From assembly GCA_012522855.1 (NCBI GenBank), contig JAAYJQ010000010.1, positions 62,001-126,000 of the forward strand: a stretch of 64,000 bases of DNA, in the 5' to 3' direction. The notes beneath the pieces were generated by a model. That model was not told the DNA's origin and searched no databases. It worked only from the letters and a program-made list of their open reading frames with translations. This DNA is from Bacteroidales bacterium (lineage in GTDB: Bacteria > Bacteroidota > Bacteroidia > Bacteroidales > UBA932). Every line of letters starts with the position of its first letter. Positions within the stretch are counted from its first letter, which is position 1. The position numbers and the translations under genes are program-made. Of the stretch, positions 36,695-49,057 are shown piece by piece.

Positions 36695-36893
36695 ACCACC
36701 TGCCATCAGCAACCAGAAAAGATCGCGACAGGTGGTTCGGCACGCAGAAGGAGCGCTACTCGCTGCGAAGGGTCAAGGCTGGGATAGCCGAAAGCCAAGA
36801 GGTACAAGCGGCGCAGAGAGAGAAACGGCCATTAGAATCATTCCTCTTAAAGTAAAACGATAAATATTAGAGATCTGGATTATGGTCTGAACG

Positions 36894-36913
36894 TATGTAG
36901 AACGTTTTACATA
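36894..36913. promoter_or_regulatory. LacI-type palindromic operator upstream of the LacI-oxidoreductase fusion
   Basis: TATGTAGAACGTTTTACATA is a 20-bp palindrome with a single mismatched pair, centred on CG. LacI/GalR-family proteins characteristically bind even palindromes with a central CG step (AACGTT core). It lies 47 bp upstream of the ATG of the fusion gene, in the right place for autoregulation of the 36961-43507 operon. Confidence 0.7.
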
Positions 36914-36960
36914 ATCATCTTCGCCTTTTTCTAAAAATTTATGGATAATATTGCATTGAA

Positions 36961-39804
36961 ATGAAAAAGGTAGTATCAAATACCGTCACGATTCGTGATG
37001 TTGCAGAAGCAGCGGGCGTTTCAATATCTCTTGTGTCTTTCGTGCTGAATGCCAAACGCGGACCCAAGGGGGAATATATTTGCTCCGCATCTCAGGAAAC
37101 AGCGGAAAAGATAGTGGCAGCTGCCAAAAAGCTTGGATATCGCAAGAATATGGCAGCTTCTTCTCTTCGTTCGGGATACAGCAAGACACTTGGAATAATT
37201 GTCGCTGACATTGCCAACACTTTCTTCAGCGACATATGCCGCCATCTTGAAAACATCTCTGCCCAAGCAGGTTATCTTTCAATCTTCGGGTCTACTGACG
37301 ACAACCCCGAAAAAATGTCTCAACTCATCAACAAGTTCATTGCATCCGGCGTTGATGGACTCATTGTGGCTCCTTGCGCTCACACCGAACAACAGATTTC
37401 TGAAATAGCTGCCAATGTTGTCCCTGTTGTTTTGATTGATCGGGATTTGGCAAGCGCGAAGGGCGTGGGACGAGTGATGATGGATAACGAGAATGCCGGA
37501 AGGCAAGCGACCCGGCACCTGATCGGCAATGGTCACAAGAAGATTGAAATGATCCGTTATCAGACTGACATTCCGACTATTCTAAAGCGTTTTCAGGGCT
37601 ATAAAGATGAGATGTTTGACAATGGTCTCGGCCAGTATGTCAAAGATAATATCATCAGGAAAGAATCCGTCGACGAAGGGATGATTGATGCTGTAAGGGA
37701 AGCGCGGGAGAGAGGTGTGAATGCCCTGATTTTCCCTTCCAATCTGCTGACAATAAAAGGTATTGCAGCAATCAACAACCTGGGGTACAAGATTCCTGAC
37801 GATTTTGCAGTCGTCGGTTTTGATCAGGGAGACAATGCTGAAATATACAATCCAAAACTGTCCTATGTATATCAGCCGACAAAACTTGTCGCGCAGCATT
37901 CATTTGAAATGCTGCACAATATGATAACCGGACAGCAAGGCAGTATGTGCAAGACAATAGCTCCAAAATTTGTATTGGGTTTATCTTCTGCCTCATCACA
38001 AAGTGGCAGAACCGGCTCAATCTTGCTGTGCGGATCGTCCTTTGATAATCTGGGAGGATGGATTTCCGACTCTCAATTCATGGATGTGATGGGGTCCAGT
38101 TATCTGCTGGCCCACGGATTGGGCAAGCCTGTTGACGATGCCTCTACTTCATTCTTCGTTGAGAAAGAAGGCGAGTATCACATTTATGTCAGGACAAGGA
38201 ACTGGACTGCATATTGGTCGGATTCCGCTCCCGGCATTTTTAATTTGTCGATTGACTCTGTCCCCATTGAAAACACATTTGGTTCCGGTTCTGCGGAATG
38301 GAACTGGCAGGAAGGGGGAACCGTGCATCTTTCAAAAGGCAATCACATTATTTCCGTACATGACCTGACCGGCTTTGAAGGTCGTTTCGACTCGATTCTG
38401 CTGACGCTGCATCCCGGTGCTCCGGTTGAGGATATCAATACCTTGAGAAAACGTCTGCTGGATATTCCGGTTCTTCCGGAAGATAAGGGAACCTTTGATT
38501 TTGTTGTTGCGGGAGGAGGTGTTGCCGGTATGTGCGCTGCTCTGTCCGCCGCAAGACTCGGACATAAAGTTGCCTTGATTCAGGACAGAAAGGTCCTTGG
38601 CGGCAACAATTCGTCCGAGGTCAGGGTTGGGCTTGGAGGCCGGATCAATATAGGTCCTTTCCCCGCTCTCGGATATCTGTTGAATGAGTTTGCACCGTCA
38701 AGAAAGGGTAATGCAAGGCCTGCCGACATTTATGAGGACGAAAAGAAACTTGATATTATACTGAAAGAAAAAAACATTTCACTTTTCCTTGGATATAAAG
38801 TGTCTTCTGTCGACAAATCTGACTCCAGCATAATCAGCAGCGTAATTGCTACAAATGTTGATGATTACAGGACCATAAAAGTGTCGGGTCACTTCTTCGC
38901 GGACTGTACGGGCGATGCTACTCTCGGCGTGCTGGCAGGAGCGGAATGGTCAATGGGCAGGGAGGCAAAAAGCGAATATGACGAGCCGTCAGCCCCTGAA
39001 ACTGCAGATGGAATCACCTTGGGAGCCTCGGTACTATGGTATTCCGAAGAAGAAAATGAAAAGCAGATTTTCCCGGATATTGATTGGGGGCTCAAGATAG
39101 ATGAGGATACGGTGCAGAAGGTCAGACGTGGACAATGGTATTGGGAGGTCGGAATGAAGGATGACCAAATTGCGGATGCTGAAAAGATACGTGATTATGG
39201 AATGTATGTGGCTTATTCGAACTGGGCATATATCAAAAACCATTCATCTTTCAAAGGGGAATATGACAAAACTGCTTTGAAGTGGCTGTCTTTCTATGCC
39301 GGAAAACGCGAGAGCCGTCGCCTTATCGGCGAATTTGTGCTGAAAGAGCAGGATTTGAGGAACTTTACCATATATGACGACGGCTGCGTTTCCACATCTT
39401 GGTACATTGACAATCACGAACCCGATCCTGAAAATCAGAAGCGCTTCAAAGATCCATGGCTGAGCCGAGGCTGCCTGGCTCCTCTTGATTTCTATCCTAT
39501 TCCTTTCCGCTGCTTTTACAGCAAGAACGTCCTCAATTTGTTCATGGCCGGCAGGAATATTTCTGTCAGCCATCTGGCTCTTGGCACAACAAGGGTGATG
39601 AGAACATGTGCAATGATGGGAGAGGTCGTGGGCATGGCATGCTCTGTCTGTCTGAAAAACAACATTCTGCCATCGAAGATTGTGCCCTCGTTCTTTGATG
39701 AACTTAAGGCTTTGATGAAAAAGGGTGTCGGTGACCCGAACAAACCTTATACTCAAATATATACCCTGATTGATACAACCGCTGTCAGAAGCGAAGATTG
39801 CTGA
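36961..39804 (+). CDS. LacI-family repressor fused to an FAD-dependent oxidoreductase
   Basis: A single 947-residue chain. Residues 9-33 (TIRDVAEAAGVSISLVSFVLNAK in outline) are a LacI helix-turn-helix. About 68-345 is a complete periplasmic-binding-protein effector domain, ending at the usual LacI C-terminus (FVLGLSSAS). About 355-485 is a beta-rich domain (FDNLGGWISDSQFMDVMG, YLLAHGLGKPV, HDLTGF) that I know as the N-terminal accessory part of some exported FAD oxidoreductases. About 510-947 is an FAD_oxidored (PF12831-like) domain: FDFVVAGGGVAGMCAALSAA dinucleotide fold, LGGNNSSEVRVGLGGR, ADCTGDATLGVLAGAEW and MAGRNISVSHLALGTTRVM. There is no signal peptide, as expected for a DNA-binding protein, although the homologous oxidoreductases are usually exported. 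The symporter starts 3 bp later. It presumably senses and oxidises the same small molecule; this is inference. Confidence 0.85.
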   Translation: MKKVVSNTVTIRDVAEAAGVSISLVSFVLNAKRGPKGEYICSASQETAEKIVAAAKKLGYRKNMAASSLRSGYSKTLGIIVADIANTFFSDICRHLENISAQAGYLSIFGSTDDNPEKMSQLINKFIASGVDGLIVAPCAHTEQQISEIAANVVPVVLIDRDLASAKGVGRVMMDNENAGRQATRHLIGNGHKKIEMIRYQTDIPTILKRFQGYKDEMFDNGLGQYVKDNIIRKESVDEGMIDAVREARERGVNALIFPSNLLTIKGIAAINNLGYKIPDDFAVVGFDQGDNAEIYNPKLSYVYQPTKLVAQHSFEMLHNMITGQQGSMCKTIAPKFVLGLSSASSQSGRTGSILLCGSSFDNLGGWISDSQFMDVMGSSYLLAHGLGKPVDDASTSFFVEKEGEYHIYVRTRNWTAYWSDSAPGIFNLSIDSVPIENTFGSGSAEWNWQEGGTVHLSKGNHIISVHDLTGFEGRFDSILLTLHPGAPVEDINTLRKRLLDIPVLPEDKGTFDFVVAGGGVAGMCAALSAARLGHKVALIQDRKVLGGNNSSEVRVGLGGRINIGPFPALGYLLNEFAPSRKGNARPADIYEDEKKLDIILKEKNISLFLGYKVSSVDKSDSSIISSVIATNVDDYRTIKVSGHFFADCTGDATLGVLAGAEWSMGREAKSEYDEPSAPETADGITLGASVLWYSEEENEKQIFPDIDWGLKIDEDTVQKVRRGQWYWEVGMKDDQIADAEKIRDYGMYVAYSNWAYIKNHSSFKGEYDKTALKWLSFYAGKRESRRLIGEFVLKEQDLRNFTIYDDGCVSTSWYIDNHEPDPENQKRFKDPWLSRGCLAPLDFYPIPFRCFYSKNVLNLFMAGRNISVSHLALGTTRVMRTCAMMGEVVGMACSVCLKNNILPSKIVPSFFDELKALMKKGVGDPNKPYTQIYTLIDTTAVRSEDC

Positions 39805-39807
39805 GTT

Positions 39808-41394
39808 ATGGACCTCATTGACTGGATACTGATTGCCCTATTCTTAATAACCCTCACGTCAATAGGCGCGTTCTTCTCAAACAAGAACAAAAATATTGGA
39901 GATTATTTCGTCGCAGGTCGCTCTATGCCGGGCTGGCTGGTTGCTCTGGCTGCGACAGGAACCTCCATCAGCGCAGGAACTTTTGTCGGATCTCCTGAAC
40001 TTGGTTTCAATACGAACATCACCTTCATCATGAGTTGTGTCGGAGCTGTAATCGGAGGTGTCTTTGTGGCCTGGCTTGCTTTGCCCAAGTTATACAATGC
40101 AAATACAATAACCATATACGGCTATATCGGTGATAGATATGGAGAGACAGCAAAGCGTTCGACCAGCGTGATGTTTCTTCTGGGCCAATTGTTCACTTCC
40201 GGCTCACGCCTGTTTATTGCCGCCATAGCCATTTCCGTAATCTGTTTCGGTGGAATTGATTTCCAGTTCATCGTATGGTCCATCATCATTCTCGGTGTTG
40301 TCAGCACAATCTATACAATGTGTGGAGGCATCAAGGGCCTGATATATATTGATGCTCTTCAGATTCTCCTGGTTTTCGGAACAGGAATCTTCGCCCTGGT
40401 AATGCTGTTCAATTCACTGGATATGAGTCTGTCCGATATCATCGGAAAACTGCACAATGGAATGGTGAAATTGCCTCAACAGGACGCGTATGCAATGGCC
40501 GCAGACGGCACATTCACCGGCTGGACGCAGGGAAACAAGTTGCTGCTTGCCGATCCCACATTTGATTTTACAAGGCCGTACAATCTGATAGGCGCATTGT
40601 TCGCGTATGCAATCTTCAAATTTGCGCAGTTCAGCACCGATCATGAATTTGTTCAGAGACAATTGACTTGTCAGAGCGTGCGGAAGGCCGGATCTTCACT
40701 GGTGGTTTCGCAGTTGATGGCAATTCCTATTGTATTCGTTTTTCTGGCAATCGGGCTTCTTCTTTTCATCAATTACAGCAGCGATCCTGAACTGGGAGCC
40801 GCTTCCGGATTCTTCTCCGACGCGAGAGACGTTTTCCCGCAGTATATTAAAAATTGCATTCCGACAGGAGCCAGAGGGCTTATGATTATCGGTTTGATTG
40901 CCGCGGCGCTTTCAAGCTTCAACTCGGCAATCAATGCCATGGCTTCCAGTTTCGTGACAGACCTGTTTCTTCCGATACGAAAGCAGAGAGGAAAAGAGAT
41001 AAAGGAGAATGCCGAGCAGATTTCATCGTCTAGAAAAATGTCTGCTCTTATGGGAGGCGCTCTGACTGCCTTTGCCATCCTCACTGCGGTGATGCAACAG
41101 GCGTCCGGACTCAATCTCGTAGATTTTGCTACAGGTGTGATGTGCTTCTCTTATGCGGGAATGCTTGGCGTCTTCGTCACGGCGATTTACACCAAACGCG
41201 GAAATACAAAGAGTGTGATTGCCGCCCTTGTCGTGGGGCTGCTGGTTGTGCTTCTGATGCAGCCATATATCATGAACCCCCTCACTACTGCCCTGTTCGG
41301 CCACAAGGTAGTCATTGCCTGGCCCTGGTGGGCTCCGATCGGAGGTCTTGTAAGTACGGCTGTATGTATGCTGGGAAAGAAAGAAGAAAAATAG
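39808..41394 (+). CDS. Sodium:solute symporter (SSS family)
   Basis: A 528-residue protein with about 13-14 membrane helices (first helix WILIALFLITLTSIGAFF). DYFVAGRSMPGWLVALAATGTSISAGTFVG matches the SSS signature around the sodium and substrate sites, and GLIAAALSSFNSAINAMASS matches the sodium-2-site helix. SSS members import sugars, polyols including myo-inositol, sialic acid or amino acids; specificity is not readable here. It begins 3 bp after the LacI-oxidoreductase gene and lies 55 bp upstream of the phosphatase gene, indicating one operon. Confidence 0.92.
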   Translation: MDLIDWILIALFLITLTSIGAFFSNKNKNIGDYFVAGRSMPGWLVALAATGTSISAGTFVGSPELGFNTNITFIMSCVGAVIGGVFVAWLALPKLYNANTITIYGYIGDRYGETAKRSTSVMFLLGQLFTSGSRLFIAAIAISVICFGGIDFQFIVWSIIILGVVSTIYTMCGGIKGLIYIDALQILLVFGTGIFALVMLFNSLDMSLSDIIGKLHNGMVKLPQQDAYAMAADGTFTGWTQGNKLLLADPTFDFTRPYNLIGALFAYAIFKFAQFSTDHEFVQRQLTCQSVRKAGSSLVVSQLMAIPIVFVFLAIGLLLFINYSSDPELGAASGFFSDARDVFPQYIKNCIPTGARGLMIIGLIAAALSSFNSAINAMASSFVTDLFLPIRKQRGKEIKENAEQISSSRKMSALMGGALTAFAILTAVMQQASGLNLVDFATGVMCFSYAGMLGVFVTAIYTKRGNTKSVIAALVVGLLVVLLMQPYIMNPLTTALFGHKVVIAWPWWAPIGGLVSTAVCMLGKKEEK

Positions 41395-41449: not shown

Positions 41450-43507
41450 ATGAATTGTTTTAACTTGGTGAAGAAGATTCTCATTTCATTATATGCGATG
41501 CTGCTGTCCGCCGTCTTGCTTGCGCAGGGGTGGACGGCAGGCGTCAGCAACATGTATGCTGCTCCAAAGGAGGAAAAACTCGCCGTTCCCGATGGCTACA
41601 GGCCCTGGGTAATCAGTCATTACGGACGTCACGGAGCGAGGTTCCTTACCTCGGCCGATCAGTACGATATCGTTTATGATGCTTTTGCATACGAAGAGGC
41701 CAAGGGTAATCTGACGGAATATGGAGAGAAGGTATATGACAAACTGCTTTCAATCCACAAGAATTTCGAAGGCAATGCCGGTGCTTTGACTCAGAAGGGA
41801 GAGCGGCAACAGCGGCAGATTGCCAAAAGAATGAAGAAGCGTTTTCGCTCGATCTTCAAAACCCATCCGCAAATTTCGGCCTCCTCAAGCATCACGCCCC
41901 GATGCATCCACAGTATGCAAGCCTTCTGTGATGCACTTGGCGGAGATATTGAAATGCGCGCCGACACGGCTGATCTGAGAGTTCTCAATCCCTTTGCCTG
42001 CCTTGCGCCTTGCGACCAACAAAACCTGTCTTCGGAGGCATCCTGGCAGCCTTATTTCCGGGCCTATTGCGATTCTTTGATGGACACGGTTCCTTTCGAA
42101 ATGAAACTCTTCAAAAGTGGATATTCTTGCAGTTCAATTCCAATAGGGACTTTTGAAGCAAGGCTCTTCAGTATTATCAATAATCTTCCCTGTCTCGATT
42201 TCAAGGCTCCGTCGTTTGCCGGACTCTTCTCTGAAACGGAAACGCAACTTCTTTGGGAAATGGACAACATCAACTGTTTCCATCAGGCTTCAGCGGGTTT
42301 CCCGGGCAATGACAGACGTTATGCCGTTTGCTATCCATTGCTTGAGGAAATGATCATGACCTCCGATGCCGACATCAAGATCGCCGGACCTTCAGTGCGC
42401 TTGAGATTCGGACATGATATGACACTTAACGGCCTTCTGACTTTGATGGAAATTGAAGGCTGGAATAAAAAAGCCGGCTCGTATGCCGGAATAAAGGAAG
42501 TTTTCAAGAATTGGAGGATGCCGATGGCGGGAAATATCCAGATGATTCTATTCAGAAGCGAAGAGGATGGCAAACAGCCGCTGGTACGCTTCTATCTTCA
42601 TGAAAAAGCAATCGAGCTGCCGCTCACAGCCGTGGGGGACAGACTATATAAATGGGGGGATTTCAAGGATTATTACCTTGGCAGAGTTGCAACAGCCTTT
42701 CGCATTATGGCCCAACCTGCCTGCAATTTCCTCTTCAATATTGAAAAAGAATACAACGGCCGTCCAATGCAGTCATTCTCTATTTTGAATGACGTTGTGT
42801 ATGTAGGATATGATTCCGGCTTGTGCCGTACCTACGATTATTTGACAGGCAGAAAAATTGCGGAATTCCCTTTTGGTTGCCAGATCACTTCGAACCATTG
42901 CGGTAATCTGAATTTCCACGACTCTCTACTCTATGTGTCCGGAGATCTGACAAATACCGCCTGTTATGTGGAAAGCGTAACACCGGAGGGGACCCGTATT
43001 GTCCAGACAATCCATTTCCGCCTTTCCGGTGATTATGGCGGATCGCAGGCTGTCATTGATTCCGAGCGGGGTGTCATTGTATATATGAGGAGAGAGATTA
43101 AACAAATTAATGCCTCCGGCAACCGCTTCTTTATTTCTGAATTTCCACTGCCGAAAGTATCGGAAGGAGATATTACATATCGGGATTCCGATGCTGTCAG
43201 GACTTTCTCCTTGGAAAAATATTTCCCCATATATCAAGGAGCAAGCATAAGTGACGGCAAACTCTATCAATCTTTCGGAGGAACTCCTCGCAACCCTTCG
43301 TCCGAGGGTACAGGATTTGCTGTTTTTGACTTGCGTGACGGTCGTCTGCTCGATGTTGTCCGAGTCCCTTTCAACATGGAACCGCAATCTATTTTGACGT
43401 ACAAAGGCCGTATTTTGATGAATTTCAGTGGATGCGGGCTTTATGAAGTTATCAACTCCTTACACGTCCAATGTGATGCACGAATTCGATTCCAGGGGAG
43501 AATTTAA
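41450..43507 (+). CDS. Histidine acid phosphatase (phytase/MINPP type) with a C-terminal extra domain
   Basis: A 685-residue secreted protein with a signal peptide (about 1-26, ending LLAQ). The catalytic RHGxR motif of branch-2 histidine phosphatases is present: R60, H61, G62, R64 in YGRHGARF. The proton-donor HD is at H322-D323 in RFGHDMTLNG. This combination (HD rather than HAE) fits multiple inositol polyphosphate phosphatases and related phytases, which remove phosphates from inositol phosphates. About 410-685 is an additional beta-rich region (IEKEYNGRPMQSFSILNDVVYVGYDSG onwards) that looks like a small propeller; I do not recognise it. Its last 56 bp overlap the convergent GH27 gene. 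Confidence 0.85.
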   Translation: MNCFNLVKKILISLYAMLLSAVLLAQGWTAGVSNMYAAPKEEKLAVPDGYRPWVISHYGRHGARFLTSADQYDIVYDAFAYEEAKGNLTEYGEKVYDKLLSIHKNFEGNAGALTQKGERQQRQIAKRMKKRFRSIFKTHPQISASSSITPRCIHSMQAFCDALGGDIEMRADTADLRVLNPFACLAPCDQQNLSSEASWQPYFRAYCDSLMDTVPFEMKLFKSGYSCSSIPIGTFEARLFSIINNLPCLDFKAPSFAGLFSETETQLLWEMDNINCFHQASAGFPGNDRRYAVCYPLLEEMIMTSDADIKIAGPSVRLRFGHDMTLNGLLTLMEIEGWNKKAGSYAGIKEVFKNWRMPMAGNIQMILFRSEEDGKQPLVRFYLHEKAIELPLTAVGDRLYKWGDFKDYYLGRVATAFRIMAQPACNFLFNIEKEYNGRPMQSFSILNDVVYVGYDSGLCRTYDYLTGRKIAEFPFGCQITSNHCGNLNFHDSLLYVSGDLTNTACYVESVTPEGTRIVQTIHFRLSGDYGGSQAVIDSERGVIVYMRREIKQINASGNRFFISEFPLPKVSEGDITYRDSDAVRTFSLEKYFPIYQGASISDGKLYQSFGGTPRNPSSEGTGFAVFDLRDGRLLDVVRVPFNMEPQSILTYKGRILMNFSGCGLYEVINSLHVQCDARIRFQGRI

Positions 43508-45075: not shown

Positions 45076-46557
45076 TTATACTAGGAAGACGTCCTGGCTC
45101 TTGAGATCTTGGATCAGCTGCGCCACATCCACATCACGTGGGCCGCATCCACCCTTTATCGCAAGAGCTGCTGCTGTGCCGGCGGCCTGTCCCATGGCCA
45201 TGCAAGGAGGCATGACGCGGACTGCGCCCGCGGCATCCGAAGTGGCCGAGAGCGACCTTCCGGCAATAAGGAGATTGTCCACCCCTTGAGGAAGAAGACA
45301 GCGGTAAGGAACACCATACCAGCGTCCGTTCTTTACGGTGATATATTCTGTTGAATAGTCCCCGCCACGTCCGTGGACATCGACTGAATTGGAAGCGAGA
45401 AGGATGCTGTCCTCAGGAACGACTCCATTGAGCAGATCGTCAACATCGAGGACGTAATCGCCCTTGATGTGCCTTGACTCCCTGATTCCGACAGTCGCAC
45501 CGGAGCCCTTGATGGTGGCATCTTCGCAGCCGGGAACGTATTTGTGGAAGAAGTTCATGAGCTCGTTGACCTGCCTGCGTCCTTCGAATTCAGCGTCGGT
45601 AAGACTCTCCGAGTTCGTGGCATCCACATTCTTGATGCGGGTGCAGTTCACGGCCCACTCGTCAGGTTTCACACCTCTGTAGATGTTGACGCTCTTGCGG
45701 GCGATGCTCCATTCTCCAGCGGCCTCAGCCTCTGCCACATGCCAGTGGAGGGCTCTGTAACTGACTCCATCCTTTTTGTGGAAGGTGTCGAGGTGGTCCT
45801 CTACGTCCTTTATGAGCTTGTCTGAATCGACCTTATTGATGTGGAAGAAGAGGGTTGCAGGCTGTACTCGTCCGGTCTCGGGATTGCCGTATTCGCAAGG
45901 CACCCCGCTGCGGAAAGCCAGGTCGCCGTCACCGGTCGCATCGACGAAAATGTCAGCAGCAATGGACTCCAGGCCGCTTCTTGTAAGGATGATGATCTTG
46001 GAAATCTTCGAGCCGCGGAGAACCGGCTTGACGAAGGATGCATGGAAAAGCACCTTCACACCGGCTTCAATCACCATCCGGTCGAGAACGTACTTCAGGA
46101 CTTCGGCGTCGAAAGGAGTGACATGGTCGTGGCCTTGGGTGATCCATGCTGTAAAGGGGCTTCCGGCACGCACATCGCGAGGGTGAATGGCTCCTCCGAG
46201 CTGCACCATGCGTTGAACAACTTCCTCGAAAAGGCCTCTGATGATCTGCTGCTCACCTTCAGTGTCGTAACATGTCATGAAAGGCGCGACAAGGCCCCTT
46301 GTGGCCATACCTCCGAGACAGCCTCCCTGCTCAAGTATCATCGCCTTCACGCCTTTGCGCGCGGCTGCAATCGCGGCGCATACACCGGCAGGGCCTCCGC
46401 CAACGACTACCAGCTGGGTTTTGTATGAATCTTTCACATCTTTGATGCTGATGTCCTTTGTTCCGTCTAAAATGCCGGAACATGAGTTCAGGCTTGTTGC
46501 TGCAAGGCATGCCGCTGCGGTTACTCCGCTGGTCTTAAGGAAATTTCTTCTGTCCAT
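45076..46557 (-). CDS. Tat-exported FAD-dependent oxidoreductase (paralogue 1)
   Basis: A 493-residue flavoprotein. It begins with a twin-arginine signal DRRNFLKTSG and a hydrophobic stretch ending in a lipobox-like LNSC, so it should be exported folded with FAD and possibly acylated. The FAD fold is LVVVGGGPAGVCAAIAAARKG at about 50, with CLGGMATRG, DATGDGDLAFRSGV and the C-terminal LIAGRSLSATSDAAGAVRVMPPCMAMGQAAG, all FAD_oxidored (PF12831-like) features. The substrate of this family is mostly unknown; its PUL context suggests a sugar or polyol. It is closely similar to the protein at 47573-49057 and lies 6 bp downstream of the LacI gene. Confidence 0.88.
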   Translation of the reverse strand: MDRRNFLKTSGVTAAACLAATSLNSCSGILDGTKDISIKDVKDSYKTQLVVVGGGPAGVCAAIAAARKGVKAMILEQGGCLGGMATRGLVAPFMTCYDTEGEQQIIRGLFEEVVQRMVQLGGAIHPRDVRAGSPFTAWITQGHDHVTPFDAEVLKYVLDRMVIEAGVKVLFHASFVKPVLRGSKISKIIILTRSGLESIAADIFVDATGDGDLAFRSGVPCEYGNPETGRVQPATLFFHINKVDSDKLIKDVEDHLDTFHKKDGVSYRALHWHVAEAEAAGEWSIARKSVNIYRGVKPDEWAVNCTRIKNVDATNSESLTDAEFEGRRQVNELMNFFHKYVPGCEDATIKGSGATVGIRESRHIKGDYVLDVDDLLNGVVPEDSILLASNSVDVHGRGGDYSTEYITVKNGRWYGVPYRCLLPQGVDNLLIAGRSLSATSDAAGAVRVMPPCMAMGQAAGTAAALAIKGGCGPRDVDVAQLIQDLKSQDVFLV

Positions 46558-46563
46558 TTCAAG

Positions 46564-47571
46564 TTATTTTATGGAGTCTCCCAATTTAATTGTTGCATTC
46601 ATAATAATTGTTTCGTTCTTCTTGGAAGGGTCCTTGATCTTCTGCAGTATGATTTCAGCACATTTCCTTCCGATCTCGAACATAGGAGGAACGACAGTGG
46701 TGAGTTTGGGGTAAACTCCGTTGGCGAGTTCGTTTCCGGCGAATCCAGCCACGGAAATGTCTTCCGGAATCTTCATGCCCTTGCTCATCAGCGTTCTCAT
46801 GGCACCGATGCCCAGATTGTCCGTGAAAGAAAAAATGGCGTCGAAAGTCGCATTCCTCGAGAGGAGTTTTTCTGTCGCCCTCTCTCCATCCTCGATGGTC
46901 AATCCGCCTTCTACCTGGAGCTCATCCAGTACTGGAAGGTTGTATTTGGCAAGCACGTCCCTGTAACCCTTGGCCCTCATTTCCGAGTTGTAGATATCCT
47001 TGGGTCCATTGATGTAGGCAATGCGCTTCCTTCCTGCAAGAATCATCTTTTCAACAATGAAGAACGACATCGCGTAATCATCCACCAGCACCATTGAGAC
47101 GTCAAGTTTGTGAGGTATCCGCCCATAGAACACCATAGGCATCCCTTCAGACATGACTTCCTTAAACATATCATGATTTTGGGTGCCGCATTCAGCGACC
47201 ACCAGGCCGTCAACCTTGAACTTCTTCATGAGGAGCATGTTACGCCTTTCAGTTGCGGGATCCTCGTTGGAATCGGCCATGATCACTTTTATTCCCCTGT
47301 CATAGCAGTAATCCTGAATGCCCCTTATAACTTGGATGGTGTACTTGGTGTTGAGTTCGGGGACGATGACACCTATAGTCTGTGTCTTTCCTGTCTTGAG
47401 CGCCTTGGCCTCGGAATTGGGATGATACCCAAATTTCTTCACCGCGGCCGCCACCCTCCTCCTAGTCTCCTCGCTCGCACTGGTCCCTTCGCTCATCGCT
47501 CTGGAAACGGTGGCCACCGAAATTCCTAGATGTTTGGCTATGTCCTTTATTCTAACGCGATTTGAATCCAT
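46564..47571 (-). CDS. LacI-family transcriptional regulator
   Basis: A 335-residue regulator: helix-turn-helix RIKDIAKHLGISVATVSRAMS at residues 7-27, hinge helix, then a full effector domain starting QTIGVIVPELNTKYTIQVIRGI. It is of normal length. It sits inside the PUL operon between two FAD oxidoreductase genes (1 bp and 6 bp spacers), so it is transcribed with its likely targets. It is probably the local repressor and may bind the palindrome at 56711-56724 upstream of susC. A PUL controlled by LacI rather than a hybrid two-component system or sigma/anti-sigma pair is less usual. Confidence 0.93.
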   Translation of the reverse strand: MDSNRVRIKDIAKHLGISVATVSRAMSEGTSASEETRRRVAAAVKKFGYHPNSEAKALKTGKTQTIGVIVPELNTKYTIQVIRGIQDYCYDRGIKVIMADSNEDPATERRNMLLMKKFKVDGLVVAECGTQNHDMFKEVMSEGMPMVFYGRIPHKLDVSMVLVDDYAMSFFIVEKMILAGRKRIAYINGPKDIYNSEMRAKGYRDVLAKYNLPVLDELQVEGGLTIEDGERATEKLLSRNATFDAIFSFTDNLGIGAMRTLMSKGMKIPEDISVAGFAGNELANGVYPKLTTVVPPMFEIGRKCAEIILQKIKDPSKKNETIIMNATIKLGDSIK

Positions 47572-47572
47572 A

Positions 47573-49057
47573 TTATCCGAGGAATGCTTTGTTGTCCTTG
47601 AGTGTCTTCAGGAGATGCTCCATGTCTACATCCTTTGCGGCTTTGCCTCCCTCTTTGATGCAAAGGGCAGCCGCGATGCCGGCAGCCTGGCCCATGGCCA
47701 TGCAAGGAGGCATCACGCGCACCGCTCCGGCGGCGTCTGAAGTTGCCGACAGGGGTCTTCCTGCAACGAGAAGGTTGGTGATTTCCTTAGGAACAAGAGC
47801 TCTGTAAGGCACACCATACCAGTTGCCGTTCTTCATAAGGGTATAGTTGGTGGTATTTGTAGCGCCCTGTCCTCCGTGGACATCGACTGAATTGGAAGCG
47901 AGGAGGATGCTGTCCTCAGGAACAACGCCGTTGAGAAGGTCTTCAGCATTGAGCACGAAATCTCCGATGATGTGTCGCGACTCACGTATGCCGAGTGTCT
48001 CCGCGGTCTTCATCAGGGTCGCATTCTTGCATCCCGGCACATACTTGTGGAAGAAGTTGACCACTTGCTCCACCTGTCTGCGGCCCTCTATCTCTCCTGC
48101 TGTCATGCTTTCTGAATCAAGGGAGTTCACGTCAAGGATACGTGTCACATTGACGCTCCACTCATCCTCGCGGACGCATTTGTGAAGATTGACCGACTTT
48201 CTTTTTATGTCCCACTCACCATTATTCTCGGCCTTCTCGACGAACCAGTGCAGCGCCCTGTAGCTGACGCCGTTCACTCTTCTGAACTCACCAAGATGCG
48301 ACTCCACATCCGCTATGAGCTTGTCAGATTCGACGTTGTTGAGTCTGAGGAAGAGGGTGGAAGGCTGCACGCCTCCTTCTCCGTTTCCGTAGTAGAAAGG
48401 GACGCCTGCCGAAGCGCTGACATCGCCGTCACCTGTTGTGTCTATCACAAAATCAGCGGTGACAGATTCGAGGCCCTTCCTGGTGAGGAGCACGACCTTA
48501 TCGATTCTGTCGTTCTTAGTTTCCGTGGTGACAAAAGCAGCATGATAGAGTATCTTCACACCGGATTCGAGGGTCATTCGCTCAACGGCAACCTTCATTA
48601 TCTCAGGGTCAAACGGGGTTTCATGGTCATGCCCCTCCTTCATCCAGGCTGTATACGGGGTCTCCCAGCGTACGTCCTTTGGATGGATGGCTCCTCCCAT
48701 GGCAACCATTCTGTCAACGATCTCTTCGAAGAGACCTCTTATGATCATCTGCTCGCCGCTCATGTCATAGCAGGTCATGAATGGCTGGACCAGACCTCTG
48801 GTGGCCATTCCACCGAGGCATGCGCCCTGCTCGACGAGCATGACCTTCATGCCTTGCCTTGCGGCAGCGATCGCGGCTGTGATTCCAGAGGGGCCGCCTC
48901 CAACAACAAGCACCTGAGTCCTGAAACTGTCTTTCACTTCAAACTTTGCAAGTTTACCCTTGTCTGACGAACCGGCTGCGCATGAGGGTATCATTGAAGT
49001 AGCAAGACCCGCCAGCGTCAGCGAACCCGAGGATTTTAAAAAGTCTCTTCTATCCAT
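47573..49057 (-). CDS. Tat-exported FAD-dependent oxidoreductase (paralogue 2)
   Basis: A 494-residue paralogue of the protein at 45076-46557, with matching blocks throughout (GGCLGGMATRG/GACLGGMATRG, IRGLFEEIVDRMVAMGGAIHPKDVR, GIRESRHI, VPEDSILLASNSVDVHG, SLSATSDAAGAVRVMPPCMAMGQAAG). It opens with the twin-arginine motif DRRDFLKSSG and a lipobox-like IPSC. The FAD fold is LVVGGGPSGITAAIAAARQG. Two similar flavoenzymes on one transcript may act on different positions or stereoisomers; that is inference. It starts 2 bp after the metallo-beta-lactamase-fold gene. Confidence 0.88.
   Translation of the reverse strand: MDRRDFLKSSGSLTLAGLATSMIPSCAAGSSDKGKLAKFEVKDSFRTQVLVVGGGPSGITAAIAAARQGMKVMLVEQGACLGGMATRGLVQPFMTCYDMSGEQMIIRGLFEEIVDRMVAMGGAIHPKDVRWETPYTAWMKEGHDHETPFDPEIMKVAVERMTLESGVKILYHAAFVTTETKNDRIDKVVLLTRKGLESVTADFVIDTTGDGDVSASAGVPFYYGNGEGGVQPSTLFLRLNNVESDKLIADVESHLGEFRRVNGVSYRALHWFVEKAENNGEWDIKRKSVNLHKCVREDEWSVNVTRILDVNSLDSESMTAGEIEGRRQVEQVVNFFHKYVPGCKNATLMKTAETLGIRESRHIIGDFVLNAEDLLNGVVPEDSILLASNSVDVHGGQGATNTTNYTLMKNGNWYGVPYRALVPKEITNLLVAGRPLSATSDAAGAVRVMPPCMAMGQAAGIAAALCIKEGGKAAKDVDMEHLLKTLKDNKAFLG

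Follow-up and report, generated by a model that had tools for sequence, protein, structure and literature searches.

A gene fusing a LacI regulator to a flavoenzyme

The window, by which we mean the whole 64,000-nucleotide stretch of Bacteroidales DNA analyzed here, contains on its forward strand one open frame (36961..39804) encoding a 947-aa protein in which a LacI regulator is fused to a FAD-dependent oxidoreductase (lacI-fad). From the N-terminus, the protein comprises a LacI helix-turn-helix (HTH) domain (aa 10-63, 36988..37149), a LacI effector-binding domain (about aa 75-340, 37183..37980), a mostly beta region that links the LacI and FAD parts and has no Pfam match (aa about 353-485, 38017..38415), and a FAD_oxidored domain identified by Pfam (PF12831, aa 513-916, 38497..39708), all on the + strand. 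Its LacI half has the LacI HTH, the hinge helix and the periplasmic-binding-like effector domain of a LacI-family regulator. The HTH is kept in all 20 aligned lacI-fad rows, with the helix VSISLVS in 14 of the 20, and so is the hinge pattern AAxxLRxG including its leucine (20/20). As known from work on LacI and PurR, the hinge leucine acts at the central CpG of the operator. A first-pass annotation of this DNA had taken the DNA-binding half to be functional; the conservation of HTH and hinge supports this indirectly, and this half is very probably in use.

In the structure model of the fusion (mean pLDDT 80.9, pTM 0.64), the closest structural matches are PurR, CcpA and LacI, many of them bound to DNA. 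The hinge (aa 63-73) falls below pLDDT 50 in this monomer model, and the relative placing of the LacI and FAD halves is unreliable in it. A sequence search of the PDB with the FAD half returned short matches near the nucleotide-binding start and one weak longer match.

In some relatives, the two parts are split into separate genes. Counting fused and split rows only, at least two changes of state are needed on both the LacI and the FAD trees, so the fusion is not an artefact of a single assembly. The FAD tree was built without L001, L003, L004, L005, L017, L025, L033, L066 and L067, and the LacI tree without L033 and ten distant rows. No paper on LacI-FAD fusions was found in the literature searched, which was covered partly by titles and the starts of abstracts.

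The next gene, only 3 nt after the fusion gene, encodes a sodium:solute symporter (SSF, 39808..41394, + strand), and is followed by a histidine-phosphatase gene (His_Phos_2, 41450..43507, + strand) possibly on the same transcript. In relatives, the neighbors of lacI-fad encode heparinase II/III-like lyases, GH88 proteins, a PfkB kinase, a zinc alcohol dehydrogenase and the SSF symporter, as judged from one or two scanned members per cluster, the others being assigned by BLAST clustering. A search of the window's genome for the zinc alcohol dehydrogenase neighbor was empty, and the closest PfkB of this genome lies on another contig. We also observed a second LacI/FAD-oxidoreductase neighborhood in the window (45076-49057, - strand), where a further LacI gene (46564-47571) has a FAD_oxidored-type gene with a TAT-like start on either side; the Pfam scan covers the first of these two FAD genes.

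A palindrome upstream of the fusion gene

The 20-bp palindrome TATGTAGAACGTTTTACATA lies at 36894..36913 (core 36898-36909) and has no strand of its own. As the first-pass annotation had described, it is near-perfect, with 9 of 10 pairs matched and a CG centre, and ends 47 nt before the ATG at 36961. The site has the even palindrome and central CG pair of LacI-family operators. The annotation was also right in expecting the central CG in sites of this family, since it is present in 1173 of 1251 even LacI motifs according to parts of a published survey (PMC4052901). Parts of the same source place more than 75% of LacI-family sites about 30-140 bp before the start codon, a range that includes the 47 nt found here.

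With up to 3 mismatches, TATGTAGAACGTTTTACATA occurs at a single place in the window, the second match being its own reverse complement. As a palindrome alone, the site is not rarer than chance: one 20-mer with at least 9 of 10 pairs and a central CG was seen in the window against 0.71 expected (mean over 200 dinucleotide shuffles of the window). Palindrome statistics by themselves were therefore discarded as evidence, and we consider the site real because of its conservation and position. Within its clade, the window copy is not the best one, carrying one A-to-G change in the core. A lone half-site, GTAAAACG, lies upstream of the operator (36852..36859, + strand).

In the window's genome, the 16-bp pattern TGTARAACGTTYTACA is found at one place with up to 2 mismatches (control 3). 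Ten further places within one mismatch of the 12-bp core were considered as a possible genome-wide regulon and taken as background because, by reading only, nothing visibly connects the neighboring ORFs with the fusion, and the reversed control gave 45 against 11.

The palindrome is conserved upstream of fused and split lacI-fad genes

Scanning genome contigs with the fusion protein yielded 42 loci, and a search of 61 genomes added more. From these, we obtained 19 distinct lacI-fad loci with usable upstream DNA (11 fused and 8 split, including the window), defined as loci in which this LacI is fused to, or stands directly before, this FAD gene. Rows left out of this count are L001 (window), L003, L004 and L005 (same contigs as L040, L043 and L051) and L033 (40 nt upstream). 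The first-pass annotation had proposed comparing the upstream regions of orthologues, and the palindrome turned out to be conserved before both fused and split genes: the core TAAAACGTTTTA is present within 150 nt upstream of the LacI start with up to 2 mismatches in 15/19 loci, with up to one in 14/19 and exactly in 10/19, many of the loci being close relatives so that the counts are not independent. Markov-resampled upstream regions (n=3,800) contain the core with up to 2 mismatches in 3.8% of cases and exactly in 0%.

The four loci without an adjacent operator are L044, L040, L039 and L037, in all of which the lacI-fad gene follows closely behind another gene. In L044 the leading gene of that operon is preceded by a weaker site; no site above the cut-off was found elsewhere in the loci L040, L039 and L037.

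Among 384 other mechanical ORF starts (at least 200 aa, L032-L073), the core was found with up to 2 mismatches in 11, with up to one in 7 and exactly in 5, and these five exact copies belong to the same regulon. The seven starts with up to one mismatch correspond to three heparinase-like genes, one PfkB gene and three divergently oriented genes with which lacI-fad shares its operator. The heparinase II/III-like carriers are the first such genes of their loci, and the operator lies 47-48 nt upstream of them (L043:10435, L047:4615 and L049:12346); the PfkB gene heads the L044 operon. The divergent genes are those of L049, L063 and L050; the last two fall into one cluster with the L035 GH88 protein, and the N-terminus of the L049 product resembles that of L063. 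The second heparinase-like gene of L050 has a weak site and no -7 box. In L043, L049, L050, L051 and L063, the DNA upstream has two additional TGTAAAA repeats, spaced 10-11 bp from each other, that run into the operator half-site; they are possibly added weak half-sites or an UP-like element.

The palindrome tracks this LacI subfamily

Of 200 genomes of the genus, 3 contain the exact 14-mer GTAAAACGTTTTAC (reversed control, 2/200), and all three occurrences precede a lacI-fad gene, the third on the L035 contig. Among 400 genomes of the genus, 66 have a LacI match at E 1e-75 or better, with 52-100% identity in 11 and 44% or less in the remainder. By contig position these 11 genomes are loci already counted, mostly the same contigs, and add no independent support; the new rows are therefore 19 more distant lacI loci only. 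In seventeen of these loci no fad gene is present; the other two (L105 and L112) are further fusions. The core with up to one mismatch was found in 0/19 of these distant loci, and with up to 2 mismatches in three, two lacking a CG centre (L110 and L121) and one having it (L117). The operator thus tracks this LacI subfamily, as the 14-mer is found only before lacI-fad genes and the core is absent at one mismatch from the distant loci. In L105 and L112, the LacI proteins (42-44% identity) are likewise continued by a beta/FAD protein of this kind, which the end of the locus truncates.

The window's genome encodes other LacI-like proteins, one of them 44% identical. A paralogous LacI at G000:C25 was considered as the owner of the site and rejected, since no such palindrome is present in its upstream region.

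Position of the proposed operator relative to predicted promoters

Parts of a study of Bacteroides describe TAnnTTTG and TTTG as the -7 and -33 consensus (PMC7366714). In our loci, TAnnTTTG is enriched 0-50 nt before the ATG, with TTTG 21-24 nt before it; the 0-10 nt bin of this enrichment is partly the lacI-fad regulon itself. In the window, the candidate -7 box TAATATTG (36946..36953, + strand, one mismatch) starts 42 nt from the operator centre and lies 7 nt before the ATG. A weak TTCG that may serve as a -33-like element is found 22 nt before this box (36920..36923, + strand). An alternative weak -7 box, CATCTTCG (36916..36923, + strand, 2 mismatches), is located 12 nt from the operator centre, and the operator would fall inside the promoter if this box were used. 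Both boxes of the window are weaker than those of its relatives.

A perfect TAnnTTTG starts exactly 41 nt from the operator centre at 11 of 14 sites, namely 8 of the 10 lacI-fad loci of the window's clade and all three heparinase-like promoters, versus never more than 2 sites sharing one distance in 5,000 resamplings. Taking one row per lineage or promoter, the 41-nt box is present in 5/8. The operator-to-box DNA of the window and of the heparinase promoters is 18-27% alike, and that of L050/L051 and L049/L063 (operator to promoter) is 97% alike. The operator-to-ATG distance varies from 29 to 89 nt in this clade. In L044, the perfect box is 31 nt from the operator centre; in L035, no -7 box was found although the operator is present, and no perfect box was found on the divergent side of L043. 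A second perfect box, 18 nt from the centre, is seen at three of the 14 sites (L043, L050 and L051) and with one mismatch in L032, L049 and L063.

For the divergent GH88-like genes, the perfect box is found 42 (L050), 52 (L051) or 62 nt (L049 and L063) from the operator centre and 27-32 nt before their own ATG. L050 and L051 are near relatives, and their box distances differ by exactly 10. The distances 31, 41, 42, 52 and 62 nt are whole helical turns apart. None of 20,000 random draws reached the phase coherence (10.5 bp) of six promoter types taken once each, and 29 of 20,000 reached that of the four distinct distances alone; these draws ignore kinship, and the rows were chosen by the analyst. 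If the box is assumed to start at about -11, the operator is centred near -42, -52, -63 or -73. Judged by the predicted boxes, the operator would thus be upstream of the -33 element and on one face of the helix. In several lacI-fad loci the -7 box is located 4-7 nt before the ATG, and therefore a near-leaderless mRNA would be produced; in Bacteroides thetaiotaomicron, about 3.7% of 5' UTRs are under 10 nt, according to the same partial source (PMC7366714).

The layout differs in a sister clade, where the -7 box starts 6 nt from the operator centre in L036, L041, L045 and L059 and 7 nt in L038. The operator sits between TTTG and TAnnTTTG in L045, and nearly so in L036, L041 and L059. A second similar site is present 125-131 bp upstream (L036:2857, L041:5817 and L045:5809), and DNA looping might make use of such a spacing. 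Having the operator within the predicted promoter, this clade shows what looks like a classical repressor arrangement.

Discussion

Leaving aside the sign of control, we propose, with a probability of about 0.83, that the LacI half of the fusion uses the palindrome as its operator and that the protein regulates its own gene. What the sequences themselves show is the conservation of the site, its restriction to this LacI subfamily and its set distances to the predicted promoter. A LacI-type dimer would bind the palindrome with one HTH domain per half-site and hinge helices at the central CG, and the bound fusion would control its own operon, that is lacI-fad, the symporter and perhaps the phosphatase. 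Binding, dimerisation, an effector and the sign of control are what we infer here. A palindrome arisen by chance and serving no regulator is very improbable: 0.71 such palindromes are expected per window, but the conservation at 15/19 loci refutes this for the group, and the set promoter spacing also speaks against it.

LacI operators often share AAACGTTT-like cores, and the genome of the window has further LacI-like genes, so that another LacI-family protein of the cell might bind the site while the DNA-binding half of the fusion is inert. We consider this improbable given that the exact 14-mer stands only before lacI-fad genes in 200 genomes, that the 44% paralog and other distant lacI genes have no site upstream, and that HTH and hinge are conserved in 20/20 lacI-fad rows.

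The sign of control is harder to read. The first-pass annotation had the fusion probably repressing its own operon; autoregulation is well supported by the conserved operator, whereas repression is not, and in this clade the upstream, helically phased layout leans the other way. For the window's clade, we lean slightly towards activation from about -52 through contact with RNA polymerase, because of the position of the site before the -33 region, the whole helical turns between box distances and the CcpA-like layout. According to parts of PMC3463425, CcpA activates from sites upstream of -35 and represses from promoter sites, the helix face matters, and at ackA of Bacillus subtilis extra upstream sequence is needed. 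The predicted boxes, on which the comparison depends, give our operator the same placement upstream of -35 and on a set helix face. The likeness to CcpA at ackA, pta and ilvB, as covered in those parts, thus extends to the protein family, the upstream placement, the dependence on helix face and the extra upstream sequence; CcpA differs in being global and working with HPr-Ser-P, whereas the regulator here is local and activation is suggested by layout only. Speaking against activation are the -7 boxes just 4-7 nt from the ATG in several lacI-fad loci, given how rare near-leaderless mRNA is in B. thetaiotaomicron, the second box at 18 nt, the comparatively weak boxes of the window, and the lack of a perfect box at the second heparinase-like gene of L050 and on the divergent side of L043.

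Repression from the same operator, with the bound protein blocking RNA polymerase, for example at a distal promoter overlapping the site, is a credible if less probable reading, repression being the usual mode of LacI-family proteins. It agrees with the sister clade, where the operator overlaps the core promoter in 5/5 loci with the -7 box 6-7 nt from its centre, and with the second box at 18 nt in the window's clade (perfect at 3/14 sites, one mismatch in three more). However, the distal box of the window (CATCTTCG, 12 nt) is poor with its 2 mismatches, and the conserved box is the one at 41-42 nt, perfect at 41 nt in 11/14 sites and also found before three heparinase-like genes, while other target promoters hold its helical phase. 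Parts of PMC4052901 report that 72% of studied LacI regulators autoregulate, which is also in line with repression.

Local regulators of the LacI family are described in parts of Ravcheev et al. 2014 (PMC4052901) as binding an even palindrome of 16-22 bp with a central CG in front of the regulator's own operon, which holds sugar-type genes. Our site resembles these in its even central-CG palindrome 30-140 bp before an operon of this type, and differs in that the regulator is covalently joined to a FAD-dependent oxidoreductase, a separate gene in relatives. An autoregulatory LacI operator is ordinary; the interesting parts are the fusion to the enzyme and the possible change of sign. DNA binding and catalysis on one polypeptide are known from PutA, NadR and BirA, which share the single-chain design and are not LacI-family proteins. 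It is tempting to go further and suppose that the fusion carries a flavoenzyme of the pathway and activates its operon and regulon from helically spaced operators upstream of the promoter, with DNA binding responsive to the redox or substrate state of its enzyme half, and that between the sister clades the operator moved from within the promoter, where it would repress, to a place upstream, where it would activate, the recognition helix staying almost unchanged and the DNA word identical. This full scenario is speculative and, taken as a whole, unlikely.

The fusion to a flavoenzyme and the differing operator placement in the two clades deserve bench work. If our reading is right, a regulator with a defined DNA target is built into the same polypeptide as the enzyme in a flavoenzyme family of gut Bacteroidales that has received little study. 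The inducer, the regulon (in relatives, heparinase-like lyases, GH88, a sugar kinase and a symporter) and signalling from enzyme to DNA would become directly testable, and natural activator-like and repressor-like placements of one operator would be available for comparison.
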